Source of the DNA: Nannochloropsis salina CCMP1776
Taxonomy: Eukaryota; Sar; Eustigmatophyceae; Eustigmatales; Monodopsidaceae
Direction of reading: 5' to 3'
NCBI GenBank assembly: GCA_004565275.1
Contig: SDOX01000006.1
Span: 62,001 to 126,000, forward strand
DNA: 64,000 bases
The position numbers and the translations under genes were made by a program. Under the pieces are notes generated by a model. The model searched no databases, was not told the DNA's origin, and saw only the letters and a program-made list of their open reading frames with translations. Below, in pieces: positions 39,786 to 47,652 of the stretch (position 1 is the first letter of the stretch; each line of letters begins with the position of its first letter).

Positions 39786-42700
39786 TTACAACATCCATCC
39801 CTTTTTGCTTCCGTTCCCTGCATTCGGGGTGTTTCCTCCATTCCCTTGCCCCATCGTGGTGACGGTAGGCGACGCCGGCTGGCTTCTCAACCCCCCCATC
39901 CTCCCCCCGCTTCCTCCTGCCCCCCCCCCTGTCCCTGCATTGCTGTGGGCATGACATGAAGCTGAGGTGCAGGACGAGGGCGGGGTGGGCGTACCACTCC
40001 TAGCGATGGTAGGACGCGTCACCAAAGGCTCGGTTTGCAGAGGGGTCAGATGCGCGTGAGTACCCGAGACGGAAGCAGGAAGGAGAGAAAGGGGAACAGA
40101 GACCGCCCGACGGGCCTGTGGGACGGGCAAGGCCATCGGCTCCTCTCCCATTTTCTCCGTGTGGAGGGAGCTATGCGCTTCTCCATGCCCGTTCCCTTGA
40201 ATTTGACCTTCCTTGAGGACCGAGGACCCTCCATTTCCCACTCGCGCTCGGCCGGACTCCCCGACCTGCCGCAGAATGCTCTTGATGATCTTTTTCCCGT
40301 TCGTCAAATTCAGATAGCGGATCCGCTCGTTGGGCAGGTGTGCATTGTCTGTGGATTGACCCAAAGGCAGGTGCAATGCCGGCGCTTTCAACAGGTCCTC
40401 CAAGAAGGCTGTAATGGGCATGGTGCCGCCCTCTCTGACGTAAAGGGGAGGCTGATGCCAGACTTCCTCAATCGCCTTCTCCGCCATTTCGAACGCATGC
40501 GCCCCTCGGTCGCCGTACCACCAGTCCCCGATTTTCTTCACCTCCACAAAAAGGTCGTTGGGGCTCCGACGTTTCCCAAACTCGTGCTTTAAATGCGCCC
40601 GGATGAGGTCCACCAGTCGGGAAGGATTTTGGCGGGGCACGGTCCTCACACTGATTTTGGCCATGGCTGCCTTAGGGAGGATGGAGTAGGAGTCTGTGGG
40701 ATTGGAGGAGGCCACTTGGTTGATGCTGAGGGTGGGCTGCCGCCATCGCCCGGCGAGGACCTCCCTGCCCGAATTGCAGGTTAGCCCCCTGACGCCTGGA
40801 ACAAAATGGAGGGAGAGAGAAGAGGGGGGAAGATGATTGCTTGCCCTGAATAAAACAGCCTTCCTTGTGAAATGCTTCGTCCCTCCGTCAAGCCCTTGGC
40901 CTCCTACCGACTGACAGCAAAACTCCTCTAGCGGAGCCTCTCCCACCCCTCTTGACTCCCCTCATCCCTTTCCTCCCTCTTCCTTGCTTACCCAAGGAGG
41001 CTTTATATGCGTCAATGTTCAAATTCATCGCGTCGAAGAGCTCGAGTTCTTCTTGTGACACCTCCTGTCGAGCGCAAAAGAGGAAGCCCAAAGACCCCAA
41101 GATGTATTTTACGACAACACAGCCATGAGAGGAATAAGCTTCAATCCTTGCCGCATCTCTTAAGCGTTCCAACCATGTCGTCATCAGCCGACGCTCAAAC
41201 AGACTTCCGTATACTCTATCCCTGAAACCTACCTCCACTTCGGCATAAAAATCTGGCACCAGGACCATTCCGCGCGCGTCCACCAATGTCGCTAGAATAC
41301 CCACTAGAATTGGTTCGTCGAGAACATGAGTGCACAAAATGATTTCCACAAAACGCCAGCATAGGGTGGACACAAAAACAAATCCAGAAAAGGATGAGAA
41401 AACTCTTCATATACCGAGAAATACACCAAAAATGGTTGGTGTAGCAGGAAAACGTGACGCGCCATGAGAGAAAGAAAATCGGGGGACTAGAATGAAGGAA
41501 AGACAAGATTGGCCGTGGCTCAAATCGCCTACCTAAATCGTTTAAAGGCTCCACAACTGCCCCGCCATCGATGCCACTGTGCAAGTTCCTGCAGAGATGA
41601 AAGCGAAACCCGTCAATCACATGTTAGCATTTTGGACCCTTCCTATCTATCGATCATTCTCCTTTTTTTTTTCCTCTTCTCTCCCTCCATTTTTCACTTT
41701 CTTCCGTGCCCTCTCCCTCCTCCCCCCTTTACCTTTTAGGCCCATGCACTCGCACCTCCAGATGGATCGTGCCTCGCATCCCATACGTCAGGCAAGGACG
41801 ATCGTCCGCGATCTGTTGGTACATGTCATTGCGATATTGCATCAGGCGCGCCATACCCTGCCCCTTATCACCCCTCTTTCCCCTTCACTTTCCTCCCGTC
41901 CTTCGTAAGGTGGGCCAAAATAAAGCCCAAGGATTCGTTCAACCCACCCCTCCTCCCTTTCCCCAACTCTTCCTACCCAGGTACTGTTTGCTTGCAAGAT
42001 AAGGCCCGTGCCCCTAAACCAATGCAAATTTTGTAGGACCGCCTCACGGAACCCCTCCGAAGACGTCTCTTCTTCCCCCTCCAGCAAAAGAACTGCATTC
42101 ATATCTGGTAATGGGAGAGACAACAAAAATGCGAAGCCAGTCGTGGGGTGTGTGGACAAGGGATGGCCTCCAGAGACTTGTCGGCAGATGCCCGTCACAA
42201 GCCGATCCACCGCCTCGGTAAATGCTCGGCGCAAGGAGACGATCAAAAAGCGGTCCACACGTTGCCCACAAACCGCCAGACCTGCCCCTCTCATCGTCCT
42301 GACCATAACCAAGAGCATATTATTGTCGACGCCCCTTCTCCCTCCTTGCCGCCCGCGCCCTACCTTTCAAGATTCCCTGCTCCTTCATCTCCTTCAGCGC
42401 GAAGATCATCGCCATGATGGGCCCTTTGTTGTCCGTGACCCCGCGTCCATAGAGGTACCCGTTTAAGGCCATCATGACGAAAGGATCCTGGATAATGACG
42501 ACCAGTAATAAGAAAAGAGTTATGGCAGGAAGAGGCGTTAAAGTCACCTCATGCTCATCCATTTCTCCTTGGGCCCCCCTCCCCCCTCCCCCTCCCCCCC
42601 CCCATTTCGCACCGTCTTCCAGGTCCTCTCCGAAGCCGGCACTACGTCGTAATGCCCGTACAACGTGACCGTGGGCTTATCTGGTTGGTTCCCAAACCGC

Positions 42701-45264
42701 GCAAGAACGACAGGGCTTTTCCCCTCCACCAAGGAAACCATCTTCACGCTGGCCCCCAAACGTTCCAACAGCGAGGTCAAAAATTTCGCACACCGCCAGC
42801 ATTCCTCCTTGTGGAAATCTTCTTCAGACACCGACACGCTTTGGTAACTGACAAATTCGCTCAGGCACTCCTCCATGCGAACCAATTCAGGCCCGCCCAC
42901 TCCCTCATCCTCCCCATCCCCCCGCCGCTCTCCCTCCCTCCCTCCCTCCTTCCGGGCACCCTTCCCACCGTTCTTCGAAGCCTCCTGCGGCATGTCCCAA
43001 GCAAGCACCGTGCCCCCTTGCAGGCCCGAAAAGAGCAAATGTTGCCCTTCCTGAGTGGCCACCAAACTCTGAACCCCCTGCTCCACCTGCTGAAACGCTT
43101 GGTAAAACGTCAGGCTGTCCACCCGCCAGACGAGGATTCCCCCGTCGGCGGCGCCAGAGAACAGGAAGCCCTCCCAGATTGCCAGGCTCAACACGTCGTC
43201 GTTGTGGCCCCGGAGAGTGCGGCGGCAGGAGAAGGACTCCATGTCCCACACTTTAATCGTCCCGTCCCTCGAACCGCTGATCACCACCCCCTCCTCCCTC
43301 CCCGCCAGCAGGGTCAAGACGGAGCCGTGGTGACCCTGCAGGGTTCGGACGCAGGAGCGGGAAGCCGGGCTCCAGACCTTGACGAAGCCATCGCCCGCAC
43401 CGGAGACCACGTAGGGAGGATAGACGGTCAGGGCCGTGACGGGCCCGCAATGGTGCGACTCGAAATGGTTCATCCCCAGGCGTTCGGGGTGGTAGGAAAG
43501 GGAGACGGCAGTCGGGGAAAAGGCGGATTCGAAGGTGAGGGAAGGAGGGGTGGAGGAAGGGGGGGCAGCGGGGAGGGAGAGAGGGAGGGTCGGCGTGACC
43601 GTAGGGGGAAATCGAACCGCGGACCCTTGCAAGCGCCTGACTGACGTGTCTTGAAACCCTAGGTATATGACCTCGCCACCGTCTTCCTCCCCGCCCTCCC
43701 CGTCCGCCCGCGTCCCGGCGGCCACCGCCAATGAAATGGGGTGGCCCATGCCCTCGATAAACACCACGCCCAACAAAAGGATGCAGCCCCCCCCGACCCC
43801 GACCCCGTTCCCTCCCTCCTCCCCTGCCTCCTGTCCCCCCCTCCCCGCCAAGCCCCAGGCCCGCAATTTGTTGTCGCTACTCGTCGTGTACAAAACCTGC
43901 CCGTGCACCACCAAGGCCAAGACCGCATGGCCCTCGTCCGCGCAGGGCACCACCGCGTCGAGGGAGAAAGTCTCGATGTTCCATACGCGGATGCACCCGT
44001 CCAAGGACCCGCTGAACAACAGGTTGCCTGACACGGCTAATGCCAAGGCGGATTCACTGTGGCCCAAGATCATGTGCCGCGCCCGCTGGAAGATCCCCAC
44101 ACCTTCCTCCCCCCCTTCCTCCCCCCCTTCCTCCCCCGGTTCCAGCCTTTTACGCGGGGACAAGGACGCAGGGCGTGCCGTTTCTGCCCGGGGCTCGCCT
44201 CCTTCCCTCCCCAAGACCGCTCGAGATGCCACCGGGCCCAGCGTATCCTGGAGTTCGTTGGGCAGAAGCCGTCGTTCCATCGACATGATGTTCTCCAAGG
44301 CAAAGCCCATCGCGTCGGAGGCCCCCAGAGGGGCCAGGAGCAGGTGGAGGTCGGGCGTGACGATGAGCATGTTGTTGGGAGGGACCACCACCCAGTCCGT
44401 GTGGTTGTCCGAGAGGGGTTCCGAGGTGGCGATCACGACTTTGATCCGCCGGTCAGTGTGGGTCATGCCGTACTCTCCTCCCGTCCCGGCCACCACTGCT
44501 CCCCCCGGACCAGCCGTGGTGGTCGTCTTGCGTTCGTACGCCGTGCCCGCGCCGAAATAGAGCGAGGCTGGCGAGGAGTCGGGGGATTTCGGGTCGTGGA
44601 CAAAACGGGTGGCCAGGAGCATGAGGCCGTCCGAGATGACAAAGTTCAACAAGGAAGCTTCCTCCACCCCGCATTCTTGGCAGGTCCGAACGATCAGGGC
44701 CACGACACCCTCCATGTTCTGCCGGAGCACGTCAGGAGAGACCACGGCCATGTGGTCGGGGAGGGCGTTCAAAAACAGGGCAAAACACACGACTGTGTCG
44801 CTCGCCCCGTTCGCCACCGCGAATTCGAAGCAGGCGTCGTTGAGTCGATCCATCAGACGTCGACGGACGCGGTCGAAGCCACCTACATTGCCGTTGTGCA
44901 TGAACAGGTAGCGTCCGCACCGGAAAGGGTGACAGAGGCGTTCGGCTACCACCGAGCCAGGGGTCGCGGCCCGCACGTGGGCGAAGAGGAGATGGGAACG
45001 AATTTTTTCTGACAGTTGCATCAAATTTTCGTCGTTCCACGCCGGTCGGGTGCTGCGGTAGATGCAAGGTTCGGGGTCTTCCGACATGTCAGAGGAGTAC
45101 CACCCGATCCCGAAGCCATCCCCGTTGATGCAGGGCGGTGTGTAGTGCGTCTCACACAGGCGCTCGCGTGCGGCGAAAGATTGCGTGATGATAGAGTGAT
45201 TGGGGCGAGTCACGAGATCGGCAGCTACGATGGGCGTGCCAATGTACGCTGTGAGACGACACAT
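39786..45264 (-). CDS. Dug3-Dug2 fusion: glutamine amidotransferase II + WD40 propeller + M20 peptidase (glutathione degradation)
   Basis: Eight exons join in phase to give 1,397 residues: 45264-42613, 42487-42364, 42104-41977, 41812-41733, 41588-41533, 41303-41233, 41064-40992 and 40795-39786. Residues 1-300 are a class II amidotransferase like yeast Dug3. Cys2 follows the initiator Met (MCRLTAYIG), with NGDGFGIGWY, FAHVRAATPGS and HNGNV. About residues 400-770 hold seven WD-like blades (SGSLDGCIRVW, SGAGDGFVKVW, SGSRDGTIKVWD, SGAADGGILVW and others). An M20 metallopeptidase as in Dug2 follows, with zinc-site motifs YGHYDVVPA, GRGVTDNKGP, LLEGEEETSS, NLHSGIDGG and a late His near NAHLPNERI. 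In yeast, separate Dug2 and Dug3 form a complex that cleaves the gamma-glutamyl bond of glutathione in the cytosol. Here both are one chain. All visible catalytic residues are present. The last 135 or so residues are a low-complexity tail. Confidence 0.92.
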
Positions 45265-46437
45265 CCTGGAGTGATGTCGGCTATGTTGGAGATATAAGGA
45301 GAGGAATCAATCGTGGGATACAAAACGAAGCTAATAGTTGGAATAAGTGCGGAGGACGTATGGGGATGGTGGATCACGGCGAAAGCGGGGTTTTGAGGGG
45401 TACTTGCCCTATCCCTAATCCTGGCAGGAGGATTAGAAGGACTCGCGGACTTGAAAGAGAGTTCCAAGAAAGAAAAGAACCAAAAACCCGACACTCGCAC
45501 CACGGACCTCCTGGTATAAGTACACGGGTTGCAATTTTTTTAAGAAACGCAGAAATGATTTTTGGGGAGTGCTTGGTCTTACCTTTGTGAGGTAGGGGAC
45601 TGGAAAACCAATGCACCAAGGGGCAGGGCAAGGGAGGAGCACCAGGAAGGTATTTAGGACCCAAAAATCAGGGAAGCAGGCTCACAATCTCCTCTTATAC
45701 CCCTTCCACAGCCTAGGAATAATGTCCTGTAACCTGTTGTGTGGATTTTCGCCACCAGAAAAGGGTTGCACTTGTTGAAATTGAAGGCCTGAAAGCCGCA
45801 AGCATCGTATCGTGACGGCCAGGTCGGCTTGATTTGAGGACGTGTTCACTCGTACCACCATTACCGGGCAGTCTTGTGACAAATCAACACCAAGAAACTC
45901 GGATCGGGGCATATCAATTGAAATGTGCCCGTCACAGTCGTCCTGGCATTAGTTAGGATGGCCAAGGAAGTAAATGGACAAGGTGGCTGGCGTGCGCGTG
46001 ACTCCCCTCTGACTCCAGTGGTCTAAGCCGGCTTGAAGGAAAGCGCATCAACCCGCCATGGGTCTTCCTCCTTCCTCCCAATAGTCAGTACCGAGCGTGG
46101 TTGTGATGGCATACACGGTATTTTGCAGGCATGGAATGAACAGCGTGGCACCTGAAAACTTCAACTGTCTTTTGAGTGCTTTGACCTTTTTTTTCTTACT
46201 AGATTATGTTGGCCCATATTACGCCCTACCCCCCCGTCCTCCTAGTACATTCATTACATTAACGTCTTGGACCTTTGATACCGAGGCCACTGTCGACGCA
46301 TCTTTTCCCCATGAAACATAATTAATATAGGGTACCGCCAATTGTCTTTACAGTTTCCCTTCTTTTTGATTGTCTATCAACGAAATAATTCTGGCTCCCT
46401 CCTTCACTTGCTTCGTCCTCTCTTCCCTTTCAGAGTC
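45265..46437. other. Divergent intergenic region
   Basis: About 1.2 kb between the divergent starts of the Dug fusion and the esterase, so it should hold both promoters. A 76-codon minus-strand ATG frame at 45682-45912 (MPRSEFLGVDLSQDCPV) looks somewhat protein-like, but no family is recognised and no neighbouring exon was found. An upstream intron of the esterase may end at the CAG near 46433. Confidence 0.4.
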
Positions 46438-47652
46438 ATGGGTCGTTTGTACGTTCTGATTGCCGGCAGCTTTCTTGCGGGATTTCTTGTGGCTTGCACA
46501 TCGAGCACGCCTACATCTCCTCCACCTCACCGGTTGCGTCGTGCCTTGGAAGCGTTCAGTCTAATTCCGGACGCAGAGGTCCGTATGGGTGAGCTTGAAA
46601 CGCCTTTCGCGGCAAAAGAGCATGATGCAGGATCAGAGGGGGAAATCAAGAATACTGTGAATGGGCACTTCAGTCCTGCAGGTGGGCGTGGTGCAGCAGC
46701 CTCGGAGACAACGGAGGAAGAGTACAAAGTGACGACAGAAAACAGTGAGCGTACGATAGAGCACGTGAGGCTCGTCCCAAGGTACATAACATTATCGGAG
46801 GAGTCAGAGAGACCGGCTCGCGTGGTTCTACCCAATAACTATCCCGCCGATCAATCGGAAGATGGAAGTGAGGACCAAGCAGGAGCGAAACTTTGGCCCT
46901 TGATCATGATGCTTCACGGCTACGGCTCTGATGCCTCCTATCACGACCATTTTTTGGGGCTCAGCGCGCGAATCAACCAACATGGTGGCTTTCTGGCTCT
47001 CTTGCCGAATGGGACCGTGAACAGCGAAGGCAAGCATTTCTGGAACGGGATTCGCTGTTGCGATTTCGATCATCAGGGCCCCGACGACGTGACGTACCTG
47101 ACGAGTTTGGTGAAAGAGGCCATCCGCACTCTCGACGTGGACCCTCGTCGGGTCTACATGCTGGGGCACTCGAACGGCGGGGCCATGACGCAGATCTTGG
47201 CCTGTGAGCACGGGGAACTCTTCGCAGCCATCGCCAGCGTCACCCCGGGCGAAATCCCCAGTGTGTGCGCACCCTCCCACCCCATCTCTGTGCTGGAAAT
47301 ATGCGCCTCTGAGGACGTGATTGTGAAGGCGGATTTGTGTGCAAGTGTCGTAGGGAACTGGACAACCGTGGATGGTTGCCCCGCCGCCCCTAATTTGGAG
47401 ACGAGCAGGGACTATGACTGTGACCCCTCGAGACCTTACGACGATAACGAGGGCTATGATCAATGGAGAGACCACAATTGCAAACTGGAGGGAAGGGAAA
47501 CGGAAGTGACAGGATGGGTCTGCAAGGGCGGGAGCCAGGTAGAGTTTTGGTGGATGCGCGGGGCCGCCCACAATCCGGCGCTTTCTCCGCAATGGTCCGA
47601 TGATGTCGTCGCGTGGTTATTGTCAAAGGAGTATGTGGCTGCCGACGCTTGA
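46438..47652 (+). CDS. Secreted PHB-depolymerase/LpqC-like esterase
   Basis: The ATG at 46438 gives 404 residues; the frame is open further upstream but has no earlier ATG. The N terminus MGRLYVLIAGSFLAGFLVAC is a signal peptide or anchor. The catalytic domain (about 145-400) is an alpha/beta hydrolase of the polyhydroxybutyrate depolymerase/feruloyl esterase group (COG3509-like). It has LIMMLHGYGSDAS for the oxyanion region, GHSNGGAM with the nucleophile Ser, ICASEDVIV as the likely acid region, and RGAAHNPALSP with the His. FWNGIRCCDF with paired Cys and a Cys-rich stretch near 325-380 fit disulfides in an extracellular enzyme. About residues 30-140 are an acidic, poorly ordered linker. A cell-wall or polymer ester substrate is likely; the exact one is unknown. 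Confidence 0.8.
   Translation: MGRLYVLIAGSFLAGFLVACTSSTPTSPPPHRLRRALEAFSLIPDAEVRMGELETPFAAKEHDAGSEGEIKNTVNGHFSPAGGRGAAASETTEEEYKVTTENSERTIEHVRLVPRYITLSEESERPARVVLPNNYPADQSEDGSEDQAGAKLWPLIMMLHGYGSDASYHDHFLGLSARINQHGGFLALLPNGTVNSEGKHFWNGIRCCDFDHQGPDDVTYLTSLVKEAIRTLDVDPRRVYMLGHSNGGAMTQILACEHGELFAAIASVTPGEIPSVCAPSHPISVLEICASEDVIVKADLCASVVGNWTTVDGCPAAPNLETSRDYDCDPSRPYDDNEGYDQWRDHNCKLEGRETEVTGWVCKGGSQVEFWWMRGAAHNPALSPQWSDDVVAWLLSKEYVAADA

Follow-up and report, generated by a model that had tools for sequence, protein, structure and literature searches.

One gene in the window, by which we mean the whole stretch of 64,000 nucleotides of Nannochloropsis salina CCMP1776 DNA analysed here, probably encodes a Dug3-type class II amidotransferase (GATase) fused to a Dug2-type WD40-M20 scaffold, that is, a one-chain glutathione hydrolase in which the M20 domain is not a peptidase. 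In the genome sequence itself the fusion of the Dug3-like and Dug2-like parts is real, and their predicted membership in the Dug2 and Dug3 families rests on the architecture of the protein. In yeast the two parts are separate, the class II GATase being Dug3 and the protein with WD40 and M20 domains Dug2. The accessible parts of three papers describe the Dug2p/3p family as confined to fungi (PMC7340319) or the Dug2/Dug3 route as fungal-specific (PMC6508711) and fungus-specific (PMC9012958). A fused Dug2/Dug3 in a photosynthetic alga without a detected gamma-glutamyl transpeptidase would extend the range of this route beyond fungi. Furthermore, a one-chain version would suit structural studies of GATase activation by WD40 and M20, and would offer a test of M20 as a mere scaffold.

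A gene with Dug3-like and Dug2-like parts

The gene lies on the minus strand and was rebuilt from the raw sequence as follows.

39786..45264, minus strand: whole gene from start to stop codon, 8 exons, 1,397 aa
42613..45264, minus strand: exon 1, 884 codons in a single open frame, with the GATase, the linker, the WD40 domain and the first 88 residues of M20
42364..42487, minus strand: exon 2, M20
41977..42104, minus strand: exon 3, M20, carrying Asn965
41733..41812, minus strand: exon 4, M20, acceptor picked by homology
41533..41588, minus strand: exon 5, M20, with the LHSG motif
41233..41303, minus strand: exon 6, M20
40992..41064, minus strand: exon 7, M20
39786..40795, minus strand: exon 8, the end of M20 (to about 40257) and then a low-complexity C-terminal tail

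Spliced together, the eight exons encode 1,397 residues and zero internal stops, the same protein that the original prediction had placed at these positions. GT-AG borders were found at all seven introns of a 1,412-aa model, and the altered intron 3 keeps the same donor and ends in AG at its 3' side. In that longer model the acceptor of exon 4 was at 41857, which was rejected; it inserts 15 residues missing from the solved homologues. Exon 4 starting at 41812 is preferred because the 15 surplus residues vanish and the best PDB score for M20 (4ruh) climbs from 236 to 256 bits.

Since everything from the GATase to the start of M20 lies in one uninterrupted exon, the fusion is independent of splice prediction. 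In 2,000 single-base shuffles of exon 1, in-frame open runs reached 329 codons at most, against the 884 of the real sequence. In 50-codon blocks all along the exon, linker included, third-position GC never leaves the range of 0.68 to 0.90, which is coding-like and without a break at the linker. The DNA of exon 1 is single-copy, with four matches of 39 to 66 query bases besides itself in the whole genome, and an intron-blind search with PF13230 found one place in the genome, which is the fusion gene. A scan of the linker for promoters and terminators found nothing; it used bacterial-type models, unsuited to a eukaryote, and carries no weight.

About 1.2 kb from the start codon of the fusion there is a divergent frame (46435-47652, plus strand) similar to esterases and prolyl oligopeptidases, with PF00326 and PF10503 barely above their cut-offs. 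Four other neighbouring frames were scanned and gave no Pfam family.

Domains and active sites

The domains and the one codon on which much of the interpretation turns are located as follows.

44320..45264, minus strand: class II GATase domain, residues 1-315, with Cys2 at 45261-45259 (Pfam, PDB 3mdn, AlphaFold, Foldseek)
44053..44319, minus strand: linker, residues 316-404, nearly all with pLDDT <50, codon-position GC coding-like
42994..44079, minus strand: WD40 propeller, residues 396-757, of which 474-605 form an insertion of low confidence (Pfam, AlphaFold, Foldseek)
41986..41988, minus strand: codon AAC of Asn965, at the position of CNDP2 Asp195 (alignment)

A Pfam scan, for which the 1,412-aa model was the input, bore out both the predicted order of GATase II, WD40 and M20 and the reading of the architecture as Dug3-like plus Dug2-like. 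Every family was above its cut-off: GATase_4 at 40.2 bits (cut-off 23) and GATase_6 at 35.7 (27), then WD40 (PF00400) at 89.6 (27), then Peptidase_M20 (PF01546) at 79.3 (24.6) together with its dimerisation domain M20_dimer (PF07687) at 31.0 (21). The last three reproduce the layout of Dug2, in which WD40 is N-terminal to an M20 with dimerisation domain. The seven WD-like blades of the original prediction are plausible, not proven: a W-type dipeptide closes six repeats, and at about residues 520-555 there is a degenerate seventh, in a stretch with pLDDT <50. After M20 the protein ends in a low-complexity tail some 155 residues long (1242-1397; 39789-40256, minus strand), and none of the 25 Pfam rows listed for the 1,412-aa model has its best stretch there.

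Residues 1-808 were modelled with AlphaFold on an alignment of 49 of the 80 bacterial GATases described below (mean pLDDT 65.4, pTM 0.51). Residues 1-315 were mostly confident, with a weaker part at about 31-50, the propeller was moderate, and residues 316-404 and 474-605 were low. With a pTM of 0.51 the model gives nothing safe on the relative placement of the domains. Foldseek matched it to beta-propellers, designed and natural, and the best fold match of the GATase part was an EgtC target (TM 0.85-0.89), with 3mdn at 0.82-0.85.

The 80 bacterial loci kept as relatives of the GATase have best-segment identities of 31-45 percent. C2, R3, D49, G50, R98, N124, G125 and D156 are identical in 80/80, so that the nucleophile Cys2 is conserved as predicted. 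Thus the residues expected of a Dug3 (an N-terminal Met-Cys and the conserved Ntn/GATase residues) are present, with a deviation at residue 158 (44791-44793, minus strand), which is Val here; in the 80 relatives it belongs to a TDSE-like motif and is Glu 75 times and Gln 5 times. Among PDB sequences the GATase matched 3mdn with 132 bits and EgtC with 56-63 bits, and none of its four matches at E 0.1 was named Dug3. EgtC and the bacterial class II GATases (PDB 4zfj, 3mdn) share the fold and the catalytic residues with the fusion, but they are stand-alone proteins whereas here the domain is fused. No M20 or WD40 was found beside the bacterial relatives at any of the 80 loci at E 1e-4 in the fetched flanks, some of which were ended by contig ends, and ten frames flanking two of these loci contained no GATase, M20 or WD40 family. 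EgtC, an enzyme of ergothioneine synthesis, was rejected as the main reading given that its equivalog model TIGR03442 scored 174.9 bits, under the cut-off of 218.65, and that EgtD had no match in an intron-blind search of the genome. In viral contigs, single-protein queries with M20 and GATase found no relative; an alignment query picked up a distant class II GATase in the contig IMGVR_UViG_3300050821_005171 (L144:5001-5774), with 30 percent best-segment identity.

The best PDB matches of the M20 domain were CNDP1, CNDP2 and DUG1, with 252-256 bits. We compared the active-site positions H99, D101, D132, E166, E167, D195, H228 and H445 (CNDP2 numbering), of which Asp195 belongs to the five metal ligands of M20. 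Seven of the eight are kept and D195 is replaced by Asn965. This position is Asp in CNDP1, CNDP2, DUG1 and all 30 bacterial M20 homologues, which are loci from 39 genomes searched (35 with a match) that were reached through 40 of the 80 GATase loci; in Sso-CP2 it is a Gly adjoining a Glu. The CNDP2/DUG1 dipeptidases are 31-34 percent identical to this M20 domain and have most active-site residues in common with it. They keep the metal-ligand Asp, in contrast to the Asn found here in an M20 fused behind GATase and WD40, which therefore does not have the full set of metal ligands of these dipeptidases. The best NCBIfam dipeptidase model gave 256 bits, its cut-off being 441. In the original prediction both active sites look intact; this holds for the catalytic residues of the GATase, in spite of Val158, and fails for M20, where Asn takes the place of a ligand Asp. 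Judging from these residues, the M20 domain has probably lost an enzyme activity of its own. Yeast Dug2p is reportedly without peptidase activity, its WD40 domain binding Dug3p and its M20 domain dimerising, and Asn965 fits a non-peptidase, dimerising scaffold of this type.

Glutathione genes elsewhere in the genome

The genome searched comprises 26.5 Mb in 103 contigs and the profile searches were intron-blind. In such searches of the genome no match was found for gamma-glutamyl transpeptidase (PF01019; control matches in 8 of 14 genomes) or for EgtD (PF10017; control matches in 2 of 14). One ChaC, two places with Hydantoinase_B (5-oxoprolinase-type) and four match pieces of M17 aminopeptidase, two of them long, were found in the same way. 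With PF01546, six contigs carried eight match pieces in all, including one inside the fusion gene. Six regions around the other matches (five M20 and one ChaC) had short weak or no likeness to CNDP1/2, DUG1, Sso-CP2 and the M20 of the fusion, the best reaching 53 bits on contig C98. A CNDP2 query for a separate CNDP2/DUG1-like peptidase gave three matches in the genome, two being the fusion gene itself and one a 62-residue piece on C98. This search missed exons 2-7 of the fusion gene, so that it could also overlook a Dug1 whose coding sequence is broken into short exons, and the result weakly suggests that a separate Dug1 may be absent from the genome.

In addition, 34 match pieces of light-harvesting proteins were found in the genome. 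One frame matched VCPI-2 (PDB 8zo9) across the full 223 residues with 455 bits, and another was closest to fucoxanthin chlorophyll proteins. These proteins mark the genome as that of an alga of the red lineage. RuBisCO had no match in the assembly, as would be expected if the plastid genome lies outside it.

Proposed mechanism and alternative readings

The best reading of these data is a predicted cytosolic one-chain hydrolase that would be equivalent to half of the yeast (Dug2-Dug3)2 complex and would hand Cys-Gly to another peptidase. Removal of Met1 would make Cys2 the N-terminal nucleophile, which would attack the gamma-glutamyl bond of glutathione to give glutamate and Cys-Gly. The position of the GATase at the N-terminus, and with it the domain order, is explained by the need for the catalytic Cys to become residue 1. 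The WD40 domain, which in yeast binds Dug3, would hold the GATase, with a flexible linker some 80-90 residues long as the tether between them, and M20 would pair two chains as a dimer with no peptidase role. A different enzyme, such as an M17 aminopeptidase, would afterwards split Cys-Gly. The yeast proteins work as a (Dug2p-Dug3p)2 complex. In S. cerevisiae this complex brings together a class II GATase, WD40 and M20 as one functional unit, as the fusion does, and the same products, glutamate and Cys-Gly, are expected from both; the difference is that there it consists of two proteins in a fungus and here of one polypeptide in a photosynthetic alga. The claim that the fusion supports the two proteins acting as one enzyme thus agrees with the yeast complex, but it adds no new proof to what that complex had already shown (PMC6508711). 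Counting against the proposed hydrolase are Val158, in place of a Glu or Gln kept in all 80 bacterial relatives, and the fact that relatives of the GATase use other gamma-glutamyl compounds, EgtC being the best fold match.

The latter leads to the alternative that the main substrate of the GATase in the fusion is a gamma-glutamyl compound other than glutathione itself, be it a gamma-Glu dipeptide, a glutathione conjugate or the substrate of an EgtC-like step towards ergothioneine. Besides the fold match and the TIGR03442 score, it has in its favour that yeast Dug2/3 also takes gamma-Glu-Met (PMC7617739, accessible part), but we find it unlikely with that score under the cut-off, no EgtD match in the intron-blind search of the genome, and WD40-M20 partner domains that are Dug2-like. 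About as unlikely is an M20 that remains a Cys-Gly peptidase despite its changed metal site, so that the work of Dug1, Dug2 and Dug3 falls to a single polypeptide. The substitution of the metal ligand Asp195 by Asn, the reported lack of peptidase activity in yeast Dug2p and the M17 aminopeptidases at hand as alternatives all speak against such an enzyme, even if seven of the eight active-site positions checked are kept and the intron-blind search of the genome turned up no further peptidase of the CNDP2/DUG1 type. Its broader form, a complete cytosolic degradosome in a single polypeptide, in an alga without gamma-glutamyl transpeptidase or a separate Dug1 and with an M20 that still processes or channels Cys-Gly, we regard as improbable. 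Finally, a G-rich, repeat-like stretch of the linker near 44100-44140 might hide an assembly join, or two transcripts might come from separate Dug3 and Dug2 genes read here as one. This is very improbable, given an unbroken frame of 884 codons that needs no intron, a codon-position GC unchanged in the linker and an exon 1 present once in the assembly.

Among the matches listed in the openly licensed literature, no title or beginning of an abstract reports a natural Dug2-Dug3 fusion. The part of PMC6351624 available mentions Euglena orthologues of "GSH degradosome proteins" under a single contig accession (GDJR01091960.1), which suggests that the fusion in this alga may not be the sole non-fungal case. 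Yeast Dug2 is listed among the proteins forming foci in stationary phase in the accessible text of PMC6874960.
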